Origin: Comamonas sp. lk
GTDB taxonomy: Bacteria; Pseudomonadota; Gammaproteobacteria; Burkholderiales; Burkholderiaceae_C
Assembly (NCBI RefSeq): GCF_900564145.1
Contig: NZ_UOOB01000001.1
Span: 3,412,754 to 3,476,753, forward strand
Reading direction: 5' to 3'
DNA length: 64,000 bases
A program made the translations under genes and the position numbers. This document shows positions 51,540-62,995 of this stretch, in pieces (the stretch's first letter is position 1; each line of letters opens with the position of its first letter). The notes under the pieces were generated by a model. It had not been told where the DNA came from, ran no database searches, and saw only the letters and a program-made list of their open reading frames with translations.

Positions 51540-51615
51540 TCCTCAATAGCTCAGTTGGTAGAGCGCCGGACTGTTAATCCGTAGGTCCCTGGTTCGAGCC
51601 CAGGTTGAGGAGCCA
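51540..51615 (+). tRNA. tRNA-Asn (GTT), first of four
   Basis: A 76-nt cloverleaf with encoded CCA. The acceptor arms TCCTCAA and TTGAGGA pair, the anticodon loop is CTGTTAA with anticodon GTT, and GGTTCGAGCC gives the T-loop. Identical to the next three copies. Confidence 0.97.
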
Positions 51616-51662
51616 AGAATTCCATTGCTCTGCAATCGTTCAGAGCAATCAAAACCAAATTT

Positions 51663-51738
51663 TCCTCAATAGCTCAGTTGGTAGAGCGCCGGACTGTTAA
51701 TCCGTAGGTCCCTGGTTCGAGCCCAGGTTGAGGAGCCA
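51663..51738 (+). tRNA. tRNA-Asn (GTT), second of four
   Basis: Identical to the first copy over all 76 nt. The 47-nt spacer before it contains the hairpin TTGCTCTG-CAATCGTT-CAGAGCAA. Confidence 0.97.
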
Positions 51739-51784
51739 AAATTTAACGCCTTGCAATCGTTCAAGGTATTGTCAAAAGACATCT

Positions 51785-51860
51785 TCCTCAATAGCTCAGT
51801 TGGTAGAGCGCCGGACTGTTAATCCGTAGGTCCCTGGTTCGAGCCCAGGTTGAGGAGCCA
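51785..51860 (+). tRNA. tRNA-Asn (GTT), third of four
   Basis: Identical to the other copies. The 46-nt spacer before it has the hairpin CCTTG-CAATCGTT-CAAGG, with the same loop as the first spacer but a different stem. Confidence 0.97.
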
Positions 51861-51907
51861 AAATTTAACGCCTTGCAATCGTTCAAGGTACTGTCGAAAA
51901 GACATTT

Positions 51908-51983
51908 TCCTCAATAGCTCAGTTGGTAGAGCGCCGGACTGTTAATCCGTAGGTCCCTGGTTCGAGCCCAGGTTGAGGAGCCA
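51908..51983 (+). tRNA. tRNA-Asn (GTT), fourth of four
   Basis: Identical to the other copies. The 47-nt spacer before it is nearly the same as the previous spacer. The array ends at a strong terminator 6 bp downstream. Confidence 0.97.
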
Positions 51984-58583: not shown

Positions 58584-60122
58584 TCAACCTTGTGCTGCTA
58601 CAACCTCTTTATTGCTATGCAATTTGTTCAAAGCACTGAGGTAAGCCTTCGCTGAAGCCACCACGATATCGGGGTCTGCACCCACTCCGTTGACCACCCG
58701 GCCGTTGCGCTGCAGGCGCACCGTCACCTCGCCCTGGCTCTCGGTCGAGCCGCTGATGGCATTGACGGAATACAGCACCATTTCCGCACCGCTTTGCACC
58801 TGGGTTTCGATGGCTTTGAAAGAAGCATCCACCGGGCCGTTGCCGTCCGATTCGGCCTTGACTTCCTTGCCTTCCTTGCTGAATACCACGACCGCATGTG
58901 GGCGCTCACCGGTTTCACTTTGCTGCGCCAGAGAAACAAACTGGAACGGATCTTCCTGGTGCGAGCTTCCCTGCACGCTCACCAGCGCCAGAATGTCCTC
59001 GTCAAAGATTTCACTCTTGCGGTCGGCCAGCTCCTTGAAGCTGGTGAAAGCCTGGTTGATGGCGGCCTCGCTATCGAGCTCCACTCCCAGCTCCTGCAGG
59101 CGCTGCTTGAAGGCATTGCGGCCGCTGAGCTTACCCAGCACGATCTTGTTGGCAGCCCAGCCCACATCTTCGGCGCGCATGATTTCATAGGTATCGCGGG
59201 CCTTCAATACGCCATCCTGGTGAATGCCGGACGCGTGAGCGAAGGCATTGGCACCCACTACCGCCTTGTTGGGCTGCACCACAAAGCCGGTGGTCTGGCT
59301 GACCAGGCGGCTGGCGGCCACGATGTGCTGGGTATCAATGTTGACATCCAGGCCGAAATAATCCTTGCGGGTCTTGATGGCCATCACCACCTCTTCCAGC
59401 GAGCAGTTGCCAGCGCGCTCGCCAAGGCCGTTGATGGTGCACTCGATCTGGCGCGCACCGCCGATCTTCACGCCGGCCAGCGAGTTGGCCACCGCCATGC
59501 CCAGATCGTTGTGGCAGTGCACCGACCACACGGCCTTGTCGCTATTGGGCACGCGCTCACGCAGATTCTTGATGAAGTTGCCATACAGCTCTGGAATGGC
59601 ATAGCCCACGGTGTCTGGCACATTGATGGTGGTAGCACCTTCGGCAATCACGGCTTCAATCACACGGGCCAGAAAATCGGGCTCGCTGCGGTAGCCGTCT
59701 TCGGCGCTGAATTCGATGTCATCAATCAGATTGCGCCCAAAGCGCACCGCCTGCTTGGCCGGCTCCAGCACCTGCTCGGGCGTCATGCGCAGCTTTTTCT
59801 CCATATGCAGTGGGCTGGTGGCGATAAAGGTGTGAATACGACCGCGATTGGCCTCCTTGAGCGCCTCGGCCGAGCGCGCGATGTCACGATCATTGGCACG
59901 CGAAAGCGAGCAGATGGTCGAATCCTTGATCGCCCGCGCAATGGCCTGAATCGACTCAAACTCCCCGTTGGACGCCGCAGCAAAGCCCGCCTCGATCACA
60001 TCCACCCTCAGCCGCTCCAGCTGGCGCGCAATGCGCAGCTTTTCATCACGCGTCATGGAGGCGCCAGGCGACTGTTCGCCATCGCGCAAAGTGGTGTCAA
60101 AAATGATGAGTTGATCGGACAT
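58584..60122 (-). CDS. leuA: 2-isopropylmalate synthase, type 1
   Basis: The product has 512 residues. It starts [23 protein letters not shown], with the catalytic Arg-Asp (LRDGEQ) and metal-binding [16 protein letters not shown]. It continues through [29 protein letters not shown] and the C-terminal leucine-sensing domain ([32 protein letters not shown]). It condenses acetyl-CoA with 2-oxoisovalerate, the first step of leucine synthesis. It follows a type 2 leuA on the same strand, separated by a terminator, so it is expressed separately. A citramalate-synthase role is not excluded, but the sequence is classical LeuA. Confidence 0.93.
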
Positions 60123-60228: not shown

Positions 60229-61899
60229 TTAGGCAGCTACCGCCTCTTGAACGGCCGGGACACGTTGCAATCCCGAGATGATGGCCCGGAGCGAGGCCGA
60301 GACGATATTGGCATCCACCCCGACACCGTAGTAAACCTGGGACTCGTCCACACGCAGTTCCACATAGGCGATGGCCTTGGCATTCGCGCCCTCACCAATC
60401 GCGTGTTCGGCATAGTTGAGCACGCGCACATTGCGACCAATCTCTTGTGACAAGGCCTGGACAAAGGCATCAATGGGACCCGTACCTTCTCCGCCCAAAA
60501 AATATTTCTCGCCTTCCACCTCGATTTCGGCCGTCATGCTGACCACGCCATCGGCCTCGCTCAAGCGGTAATGCGGGGCCTTGACCGTGTTCACGCCATA
60601 TTCACGCTGGAACAGCTCCCACAAATCAGCGGCGGCCAATTCCTTGCCGCTGGCATCCATCTCGCGCTGCACCACCTGGCTGAACTCGATCTGCAGGCGA
60701 CGTGGAAGTTGCAAGCCGTATTCGCTCTCGAGCAGATACGAGATACCGCCCTTGCCCGACTGGCTGTTCACGCGAATCACGGCTTCGTAGCTGCGTCCCA
60801 GGTCCTTGGGGTCAATGGGCAGGTAAGGCATATCCCAGATATCGCCTTCCTTGTGGGCCGAGAATGCCTTTTTGATGGCGTCCTGGTGCGAGCCCGAGAA
60901 CGAGGTGTAGACCAGCTCACCCACATAGGGGTGACGTGGGTGCACGGGCAACTGGTTGCAATACTCCACCGTGGCGCGAATGCCGTCGATATCGGAGAAA
61001 TCCAGGCCGGGATTCACACCCTGGATATACATATTCAACGCCACGTTGACCACATCCAGGTTGCCGGTGCGCTCGCCATTGCCGAACAAGCAGCCTTCCA
61101 GGCGATCAGCCCCGGCCATCAAGGCCAGTTCAGCCGTAGCCGTACCGGTACCGCGGTCATTGTGGGGATGTACACACAGCACAATGCTGTCGCGGCGCTC
61201 GATGTTGCGGTGCGTCCACTCCACCATATCGGCAAACACATTGGGTGTGGAATGCTCCACCGTGGTGGGCAGGTTGATGATGCACTTGTTCTCGGGTGTG
61301 GGCTGCCACACGGCGGTCACGGCATCGATCACGCGCTTGGAAAACTCCAGCTCGGTGTCCGAATACATTTCGGGCGAGTACTGGAAAGTCCATTGGGTTT
61401 GGGGATAGGTGGCCGCGATGTCGGAGAACATCTGGGCATTGGTGGTGGCGAGCTCGACGATTTCGTCTTCGCTCATGTTCAGCACCACACGGCGCATCAC
61501 CGGTGCGGTGGCGTTGTAGAGATGAACAATGGCGCGGGGCACGCCTTCCAGCGCTTCGAAAGTGCGACGCACCAGATGCTCGCGCGCCTGGGTCAGCACC
61601 TGCACGGTCACATCATCGGGAATGCGGTTTTCCTCGATGAGCTTGCGCATGAAGTCAAATTCGATTTGCGAAGCCGAGGGAAAACCGACTTCGATTTCCT
61701 TGAAGCCAATCTTGACCAACTGCTCGAACATGCGCACCTTGCGCTCGATGTCCATGGGCTCGATCAAGGCCTGATTGCCGTCACGCAGATCCACGCTGCA
61801 CCAGACCGGAGGCTTGGAAATCACCGCATCGGGCCAGGTGCGATCGGTCAGGCGCACAGGAGCGAAAGGACGGTATTTGGTCGAAGGGTTTTGCAACAT
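60229..61899 (-). CDS. leuA: 2-isopropylmalate synthase, type 2
   Basis: The product has 556 residues from the ATG at 61899. It begins [15 protein letters not shown] and then shows [16 protein letters not shown] (catalytic Arg-Asp), [20 protein letters not shown] (metal-binding His pair), [10 protein letters not shown], and [15 protein letters not shown]. The C-terminal regulatory domain includes [17 protein letters not shown]. This is the longer LeuA class found in actinobacteria, yeast and many proteobacteria, only distantly like the type 1 enzyme next door. Both make 2-isopropylmalate. The leader upstream encodes a Leu-rich peptide and an attenuator, so this copy is the leucine-regulated one. 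Confidence 0.94.
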
Positions 61900-61954
61900 G
61901 GTGAGTCTCTGTAGTCGAAATTGCAGGAAATTGAGCCCATTTCCAGCGACACCC

Positions 61955-61991
61955 AAAAACAAAACGGCCCGTCGCTGGTGCTACGGGCCGT
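61955..61991 (-). terminator. Leucine attenuator (terminator stem of the leuA leader)
   Basis: On the minus strand ACGGCCCGT, a 10-nt loop and ACGGGCCGT are followed by TTTGTTTTT, between the leader peptide and leuA. Upstream, AAGTAG (at the leader stop codon) can pair with CTACTT just before the stem and so act as antiterminator. CCAGCGAC in the loop can also pair with GTCGCTGG downstream. Confidence 0.85.
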
Positions 61992-62018
61992 GAAGTAGGG
62001 TGTGTTTGTACGCGCGCG

Positions 62019-62072
62019 CTACTTGATCTGCCCGTTGGACATTAGTAGTAGAGCTAGCGACAGGTTTTGCAT
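62019..62072 (-). CDS. leuL: leuA leader peptide
   Basis: A 17-codon ORF reads MQNLSLALLLMSNGQIK. Five codons are leucine (CTG, then CTA four times, three of them consecutive), and CTA is a rare codon in such a GC-rich genome. The stop codon TAG is part of the antiterminator arm AAGTAG. The terminator hairpin follows 27 nt later and leuA starts 119 nt after the leader stop. This is the classical layout of amino-acid attenuation: when charged tRNA-Leu is scarce the ribosome stalls at the CTA run and frees the antiterminator. The ribosome-binding site (AAAGTGA) is weak. Confidence 0.85.
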   Translation of the reverse strand: MQNLSLALLLMSNGQIK

Positions 62073-62125
62073 GCGGATCACTTTAACACAAGAAGTTTGA
62101 TACGGTCCGATTTTTTCCGAGCCGC

Positions 62126-62995
62126 TCAATCGTCGTGCAGGCCGCGCTCATCGGGCTCATCCTTGGAGGTCGCCACGATGCTGACATGCTCGCCCTTGGA
62201 ACGGCGCCAGGCATAGATGACATAGCCCGAGACCGAGTAGCCCACAAAGATCAGGAACAGCATGGTGGCCGGCTCCACGCTCACAATGGCCATCAGCAAG
62301 GCCACTACCACCAGGCTCACGAAGGGCATGCTCTTGGCGCCGCCAATATCCTTGAAGCTGTAATAGGGAATGTTGGTGACCATGGTCAGGCCAGCAAACA
62401 GCGTGATGGCGAACATGATCCACGACAGATCGGCTCTGTCCGTGGGATAGCCGCCAAACCAGGAGATCACATCACCAAAGATGGGGACATCGCGGTGCGA
62501 GACCATGAGCGCGCTGGTCAGCCAGATGAAGCCTGCCACCAAGGCAGCGGCAGCTGGCGAGGGCATGCCCTGGAAGTAGCGCTTGTCCACCACGCCGGTG
62601 TTCACATTAAAGCGCGCCAGGCGCAGCGCGGCACAGGCGCAGTACACAAAGGCGGCAATCCAGCCCCAGCGTCCCAGCGGGCGCAGCGCCCATTCATAGG
62701 CAATCAGTGCCGGAGCAGCGCCAAAGGACACCATGTCGGACAGCGAATCCATCTGCTCGCCAAACGCACTTTGGGTGTGCGTCATGCGAGCCACGCGACC
62801 GTCCAGGCTGTCGAGCACCATGGCGCAGAACACGCCGACGGCGGCCAGCTCGAACTTGTTGTTCATGGCCATGACGATGGAGTAGAAACCACCAAAAAGT
62901 GCAGCCAGGGTGAACAGATTGGGCAGTACATAAATGCCCTTGCGCAGCTTGCGCGGCACGCCGCTGATCTCGCCAGACTCATTGCTGTTTTGCAT
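62126..62995 (-). CDS. pssA: CDP-diacylglycerol-serine O-phosphatidyltransferase
   Basis: The product has 289 residues from the ATG at 62995, with GGAGG 8 nt upstream. The CDP-alcohol phosphatidyltransferase motif is DSLDGRVARM, then FGEQMDSLSDM (DG-x2-AR-x8-G-x3-D-x3-D). About eight membrane segments follow the family layout, starting GIYVLPNLFTLAALFGGFYSI with the N-terminal cytosolic tail. It makes phosphatidylserine, the precursor of phosphatidylethanolamine. It lies between ilvC and leuA on one strand; ilvC-pssA-leuA is a common order in beta-proteobacteria. A terminator separates ilvC from it. Confidence 0.94.
   Translation of the reverse strand: MQNSNESGEISGVPRKLRKGIYVLPNLFTLAALFGGFYSIVMAMNNKFELAAVGVFCAMVLDSLDGRVARMTHTQSAFGEQMDSLSDMVSFGAAPALIAYEWALRPLGRWGWIAAFVYCACAALRLARFNVNTGVVDKRYFQGMPSPAAAALVAGFIWLTSALMVSHRDVPIFGDVISWFGGYPTDRADLSWIMFAITLFAGLTMVTNIPYYSFKDIGGAKSMPFVSLVVVALLMAIVSVEPATMLFLIFVGYSVSGYVIYAWRRSKGEHVSIVATSKDEPDERGLHDD

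Follow-up and report, generated by a model that had tools for sequence, protein, structure and literature searches.

Leucine-dependent attenuation of leuA is known from the leuL leader of Escherichia coli and Salmonella, a Leu-rich leader with consecutive CTA codons followed by a terminator before leuA, and the element described here follows the same logic. Four consecutive CTA codons are present in E. coli K-12 leuL, and the use of this rare Leu codon is therefore not the betaproteobacterial trait that an initial annotation of the locus had proposed. The 2004 work of Vitreschak reportedly covered alpha- and gammaproteobacteria. In the Salmonella leu leader, CUG in place of CUA lowered sensitivity (Carter 1986, as reported in an excerpt of PMC1183508). 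Leaderless leader ORFs are described, in excerpts of the respective articles, for trpL of Sinorhizobium meliloti, in which the RNA begins at the leader-ORF ATG (PMC7298713), and for ilvB of C. diphtheriae (PMC5784534). Leaders with Leu codons also precede leuA in actinobacteria, including the leaderless LeuL1 of Streptomyces lividans (excerpt of PMC8079986), and the actinobacterial LEU element, compared here by its description only, shares pseudoknot pairing around the leader; for S. coelicolor leuA, leader mutations were inconsistent with classic attenuation (both in an excerpt of PMC1262725). The present element was not recognized in the retrieved portions of open-licence full texts on betaproteobacterial leucine attenuators, leaderless leaders, and post-terminator pairing, and the main text of PMC2965389, in its retrieved portion, does not contain "leuA."

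Layout of the element upstream of leuA

The window is the whole analyzed stretch of 64,000 nucleotides from Comamonas sp. lk. The element lies on its minus strand between pssA (named by eye; ends at 62126) and a gene for 2-isopropylmalate synthase that is followed by a second such gene. These are of what we take to be type 2 and type 1, respectively, and the name type 2 fits the first gene, whose best segment is 93% identical to a Comamonas testosteroni locus. The parts of the element are as follows:

62080..62088, minus strand: extended -10 promoter element TGTTAAAGT, with hexamer TAAAGT at 62085-62080, 7 nt 5' of the leader ATG
62019..62072, minus strand: leader ORF MQNLSLALLLMSNGQIK, 17 codons, from ATG at 62072 to TAG at 62019
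62043..62057, minus strand: control codons CTA 6, 8, 9, and 10 (segment 1)
62019..62035, minus strand: segment 2, ACGGGC (62035-62030) plus AAGTAG (62024-62019)
61983..61998, minus strand: segment 3, CTACTT (61998-61993) plus the terminator 5' arm ACGGCCCGT (61991-61983)
61964..61972, minus strand: segment 4, the terminator 3' arm ACGGGCCGT
61955..61963, minus strand: terminator T-tract, TTTGTTTTT, following the arm
61971..61978, minus strand: CCAGCGAC, first strand of the 4:5 helix, consisting of a portion of the terminator loop and nt 1 and 2 of the 3' arm
61943..61950, minus strand: segment 5, GTCGCTGG, 3' of the T-tract and complementary to 61978-61971
60229..61899, minus strand: leuA type 2 (2-isopropylmalate synthase, 556 aa, LeuA_dimer domain), the regulated gene, ATG at 61899
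58584..60122, minus strand: leuA type 1 (512 aa), the gene after leuA type 2, with which it may be cotranscribed

The terminator is 64 nt from leuA2, and the end of segment 5 is 43 nt from the leuA ATG. The LeuA_dimer domain was found at three places in the genome, in the adjacent leuA2 and leuA1 and at G000:C1:1275446-1275847. Elsewhere in the window (51540-51983, plus strand), four tRNA-Asn(GTT) genes with equal Rfam scores stand in tandem at a spacing of 122 to 123 nt.

Distribution and regulated genes

A scan with the LeuA2 protein gave 100 confirmed stretches, from which 80 loci were kept; a scan of viral contigs gave no relative of this protein. Parsing recovered a leader and terminator at 60 of these loci, including those of Comamonas, Delftia, Variovorax, Polaromonas, Azohydromonas, Sphaerotilus, and Lautropia. 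The motif was missing in the other 20 LeuA2 loci, which include Pseudomonas, Hydrocarboniphaga, one Burkholderiales MAG, and more distant organisms. In a set of six of these stretches viewed by eye (L066 to L069, L052, and L056), Pseudomonas carried a different short ORF holding ..SLCLVS.. before type-2 leuA, without the terminator motif, and Hydrocarboniphaga had a leucine-rich short ORF of its own upstream of leuA. Upstream of ilvB (named by eye), a simple ORF scan gave one Leu/Ile/Val-rich short ORF, about 650 nt before the gene.

A covariance model built from 41 sequences, the window included, matched the window at 7.6e-29 within its own genome, with five other places at only 0.006 or worse. 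In the same family, matches below a threshold of 1e-4 were found in 259 of 299 sampled genomes and 112 of 126 genera. Order-wide, 56 of 399 genomes had a match at E ≤ 0.01 and only 16 at about 1e-9 or better, 12 of these belonging to the same family and 4 to one genus of another family; in that other family, matches were found in 6 of 53 genomes, all of that single genus (genome completeness floor, 85 for the order sample and 90 for the two family samples). Not all model matches are this element; the exceptions, at least three, include L199 and L200 from one genome, which resemble plain terminators by eye. The initial annotation had read the locus as a leucine attenuator of leuA and had made this reading depend on conservation of the leader ORF and stems in relatives; leader, antiterminator, and terminator are conserved there.

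With 60 further stretches fetched, 204 (L004 to L206 and the window) went through parsing, which succeeded for 183: 114 before type-2 leuA, 42 before type-1 leuA, and 27 without a leuA match. A set of 145 loci was kept after identical and low-scoring entries, model-fetched entries without a leuA match (except four), and entries without a -10 motif (except six that were hand-listed) were dropped; 103 of these loci are of type 2, 38 of type 1, and 4 are unassigned. The assignment of the attenuator to a type 2 leuA is thus right for the window but too narrow for the element, which other lineages carry in front of a type-1 leuA. As in the window, a leuA1 is found within 2 kb behind leuA2 at 46 of the 57 named type-2 loci, so that leuA2 looks as if it had been inserted between an older attenuator and leuA1, or else lost in other lineages.

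Leader ORF and predicted transcription start

The window leader contains one CTG (codon 4) and four CTA (codons 6, 8, 9, and 10) as Leu codons. The parsed loci yielded 136 distinct leaders of 15 to 21 aa with 3 to 7 Leu codons each (the parser demanded at least two Leu). Consecutive Leu codons were nearly universal among them (LL in 135 of 136, LLL in 107), and CTA was present at least once in all 136. CTA made up 341 of 606 leader Leu codons (56%) versus 12 of 1,431 (0.8%) in 26 ORFs of the window. Leader stop codons were TAG in 107 distinct leaders, TGA in 23, and TAA in 6.

The motif CGGGC was found in one reading frame in 100 of the 136 distinct leaders, in another in 12, and in the third in 1; 7 had GGGC only and 16 had neither by this search. 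Because CGGGC is kept in differing leader frames, it is the RNA and not the peptide that is conserved. By eye, the end of Variovorax/Polaromonas-like leaders, CGGGCGGAGACGGTAGCGCACGCG (GRRR, stop), varies little, seemingly beyond what the antiterminator demands. CGGGC starts 11 to 20 nt past the start of the last CTA and 11 to 29 nt past that of the first (50 of 66 distinct loops, where found). Judged against the usual size of a ribosome footprint, a ribosome stalled at an early CTA would leave the CGGGC of segment 2 free, and a stall at the last CTA is borderline.

For 132 of the 136 distinct leaders, the end of an extended -10 element (TGnTAnnnT) falls 6 to 10 nt upstream of the ATG, and the other four are without the motif; since the parser searched 4 to 13 nt and the motif was compulsory except in the six hand-listed loci, only the narrowness within that range is informative. 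The usual gap between a -10 element and the transcription start is 6 to 7 nt, which places the start on the ATG or immediately 5' of it; with a gap of 10, the start would fall about 4 nt upstream. Predicted Shine-Dalgarno duplexes had a median of +0.2 kcal/mol for the leaders (1 of 136 at -5 or lower) and -4.3 kcal/mol for leuA (33 of 73 at -5 or lower). The -10 spacing and the missing Shine-Dalgarno sequence predict that the leader transcript is probably nearly leaderless. A simple consensus scan called neither a promoter nor a terminator at the window element, because it accepts terminator loops of 3 to 8 nt, whereas the loop here has 10, and calls promoters only where there are two hexamers.

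Terminator and antiterminator helices

The terminator in the window is a perfect 9-bp hairpin with a 10-nt loop (ACGGCCCGT, 61991-61983, with ACGGGCCGT, 61972-61964), followed by TTTGTTTTT. The antiterminator combines ACGGGC/GCCCGT, which joins leader codons 13 to 15 to the terminator 5' arm (62035-62030 with 61988-61983), and AAGTAG/CTACTT, in a geometry of 6 plus 6 bp with an internal loop. The initial annotation gave correct coordinates and pairs for the 17-residue leader with four CTA codons (to which one CTG is to be added) and for the 9-bp terminator with its T-tract. It named AAGTAG/CTACTT as the antiterminator; this pair exists and leaves the terminator arm untouched, and the pair that excludes the terminator, ACGGGC/GCCCGT, had been overlooked.

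Folding z scores versus shuffles were -2.73 for RNA from the leader through segment 5 and -2.89 for the terminator region. Across 66 sequences 98.3% of terminator cells were paired, although parsing demanded a terminator and counts on parsed loci are for that reason not independent. RNAalifold on alignment A1 recovered the terminator alone, probably because alternative helices overlap and distant rows are misaligned.

The pairings between segments 2 and 3, labeled 2:3a (ACGGGC/GCCCGT) and 2:3b, were compared with permutations of strands among 129 loci. For 2:3a, the mean length of a locus's own pair was 5.53, above all 3,000 permutations (at most 5.48), and pairs of at least 5 bp occurred in 117 of 129 loci (permutation mean, 114.0), a count that equaled but did not beat the permutation maximum of 117; the margin is small because the strands hardly vary. 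For 2:3b, the mean pair length was beaten by 0.03% of permutations, and 62 of 129 loci had pairs of at least 5 bp (permutation mean, 51.3), which is below the maximum of 68. A 1:2 pause hairpin can fold in the window, and both of its strands hardly vary. When the leader tail was used, the 1:2 helix had no support in the 129 loci (97.7% of permutations as high or higher), and when the post-stop stretch was used, support was weak (1.1%). As controls, Leu codons versus downstream sequence gave 0.074 and post-stop versus downstream sequence gave 0.995. A further candidate, a pair between the pre-terminator sequence and sequence past the T-tract (ACACCC/GGGTGT here, CCGGAT/ATCCGG in Aquincola), was rejected, as 71% of permutations equaled it despite its good appearance by eye and in the fold. 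As read from sequence, the element has several features of leader-peptide attenuators, namely, consecutive Leu codons, a predicted intrinsic terminator, and a predicted antiterminator that would exclude it and whose 5' strand would lie under a ribosome at the stop codon.

A fifth segment downstream of the terminator

CCAGCGAC (61978-61971) and GTCGCTGG (61950-61943) are exact 8-bp complements. In the initial annotation, this extra pair was described as competing with the terminator loop. The pair is real and covaries; its first strand is made up of loop nucleotides and two from the start of the 3' arm, and the second strand is located past the T-tract. Since segment 5 is transcribed only after the terminator, it cannot act on a polymerase that is deciding, and competition at that point is not supported.

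A Watson-Crick complement of at least 7 bp within 60 nt following the T-tract was found for 38 of 66 distinct loops, compared with a mean of 9.1 and a maximum of 20 in 5,000 reassignments; with a span of 48 nt, 37 loops had such a complement versus at most 19 in 3,000 permutations. Examples include ACCAGCAGC/GCTGCTGGT (L026), ATTCGCAAC/GTTGCGAAT (L182), GCAACCTGC/GCAGGTTGC (L205), and CGCAAGCAGC/GCTGCTTGCG (L190). The span between the two strands is 16 to 47 nt (median, 23). An alignment of the 4:5 helix was made from 66 of 84 stretches preselected for at least 5 bp at an offset of 5 to 16. In it, 92.0% of cells pair, a percentage inflated by the preselection, and 68 cells are changed on both sides, with neither value reached in 500 shuffles; the covariation score of this preselected set (0.343 versus 0.156) was likewise reached in none of 500. 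Further pair types were reached in 8 of 500 shuffles, pairs with a double change (6 versus 4.8; 83 of 500 shuffles) were less telling, and slid versions of the alignment gave 24 to 48% pairing. The permutation tests on the 66 distinct loops are the unselected evidence. The complement was shorter than 7 bp in 28 of the 66 distinct loops and lacking in L024 (C. denitrificans) and L060 (a Comamonas MAG), and a helix that is weak or lacking in some loci is not indispensable.

Predicted energies of the two folds were compared for 28 loci, all with loops having at least 7 bp of complement. With the RNA cut at the U-tract, the terminator fold was favored in all 28 (median, 8.05 kcal/mol; window, 5.3), and with segment 5 included, the median terminator advantage was 1.5 kcal/mol (window, 0.0), with 17 of 28 loci still favoring the terminator. 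Fifty of the 66 loops were foldable, and among these, taken without selection for a complement, segment 5 shifted the fold by +3.25 versus -0.43 for shuffled downstream DNA, and the shift was larger in 44 of 50. RNAfold ignores pseudoknots, and pairing confined to the loop thus lies outside this scoring. As modeled, the fold-energy shift fits a lock on the read-through fold. The 4:5 helix was also considered as a second terminator, which was rejected because a T-rich stretch does not generally follow segment 5 (0 to 1 T of 7 in 16 of 38 cases).

Proposed mechanism and alternatives

The element is likely to be a ribosome-mediated leucine attenuator of leuA, a reading from sequence that includes a leaderless start and a 4:5 lock. 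From the observed sequence, conservation, and covariation, we infer stalling, termination, the response to leucine, and the leaderless start. Transcription would start on the leader ATG or only a few nt away, as the promoter position suggests, and a ribosome would load on nearly leaderless RNA. When charged Leu-tRNA is short, the ribosome would stall at the CTA codons and leave ACGGGC...AAGUAG free; the free segment 2 would pair with CUACUU...GCCCGU (2:3), the terminator would be blocked, and leuA2, perhaps with leuA1, would be transcribed. When leucine is plentiful, the ribosome would reach UAG and cover segment 2, and the 9-bp hairpin 3:4 and the U-tract would end transcription. After read-through, segment 5 would emerge and pair with the terminator loop, by then released, and with the upper part of segment 4, holding the read-through RNA in the 2:3 plus 4:5 fold. 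This lock on the antiterminator fold is the weakest step and is put forward tentatively, at somewhat less than an even chance. Put more generally, and a little more doubtfully still, a regulatory strand located after its own terminator may switch that terminator a second time, once the read-through RNA is complete, by capturing the loop and 3' arm, and may so set the fate of leuA mRNA (its fold, life, or processing). If true, most of the family would have retained a post-termination checkpoint, even through an exchange of the regulated gene.

Segment 5 might instead pair with the loop of a formed terminator as a pseudoknot, protecting read-through mRNA or marking it for processing, which we regard as unlikely but as deserving weight. 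Of the 38 strong cases, 14 have a complement that ends short of nt 2 of the 3' arm and hence fits in the loop, and the spacing of the strands given above is compatible with such a structure; in the other 24, however, the complement enters the 3' arm. In the preselected set, the first nt of the arm (A or G) is matched by segment 5 as AU in 37 sequences, GC in 19, and GU in 3 (other, 4; gap, 3), and by its terminator partner as UA in 38, UG in 16, and CG in 7 (other, 5), so that compensation is commoner with segment 5. The complementarity and covariation of loop and segment 5 would also suit an action in trans, in which the loop of terminated leader RNA binds segment 5 in the mRNA of leuA; a precedent is rnTrpL, the trp leader sRNA of S. 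meliloti, which acts on trpDC mRNA (excerpt of PMC7298713). We consider such trans action improbable, since leuA mRNA has an identical loop of its own, and this cis copy should outcompete one supplied in trans.

Control of leuA translation, with the downstream helix exposing or masking the start, is held to be just as improbable. The distance from segment 5 to the leuA ATG (about 25 to 45 nt in loci viewed by eye) would allow it, in the actinobacterial LEU element, Leu codons and the Shine-Dalgarno sequence of leuA are paired (excerpt of PMC1262725), and predicted openness of the leuA start rose by >0.1 in 8 of 31 loci and fell by as much in 1. Mean openness, however, hardly changed from one fold to the other (0.555 versus 0.518), with a median difference of 0.021 (31 of 66 distinct loops testable), and the window goes the opposite way (0.593 versus 0.686). 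That the hairpin, which sits between pssA and leuA, is a plain pssA terminator next to a chance ORF is very improbable: two matches in one genome do look like plain terminators, but model matches occur in 112 genera, the Leu-rich leader, CTA bias, and promoter spacing recur in the 136 distinct parsed leaders, and leuA lies downstream in 156 of 183 parsed stretches.

Comparison with known attenuators

Relative to E. coli leuL, the window element has a shorter leader (17 versus 28 aa) and a promoter that abuts the leader ATG. Its 8-bp loop-to-downstream complement compares with at most 4 bp in E. coli leuL; other E. coli K-12 controls had 4 (thrL), 5 (trpL), 4 (hisL), and 6 bp (ilvL). In ilvL (L211), the loop sequence AAGGTC complements GACCTT directly after the U-tract, perhaps by chance and perhaps as a similar fifth segment. 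Rfam family RF00512 (Leu_leader) had no match above threshold in the window or in L004, L028, L042, L044, L054, and L154, and the element was thus missed in all seven sequences tried, whereas the control E. coli leuL (L207) matched at 145.8 bits; in the window, Rfam gave just a subthreshold suhB match (17 versus 41 bits). The leaderless S. meliloti trpL differs in responding to tryptophan and in belonging to an alphaproteobacterium, and a pairing strand after the terminator is not mentioned in the excerpt of PMC7298713. The S. lividans leuA leader differs in being without a typical Rho-independent terminator.

With this element, leucine attenuation would extend to the majority of the genera sampled in a large betaproteobacterial family; its transcript is probably nearly leaderless, and one element is kept before two different types of leuA. 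The covarying segment 5 poses the question of what use is made of a helix that can form only once the termination decision is past. The basic switch is of the ordinary kind, and the departures from the classic design are the probably near-leaderless transcript and the strand after the terminator.
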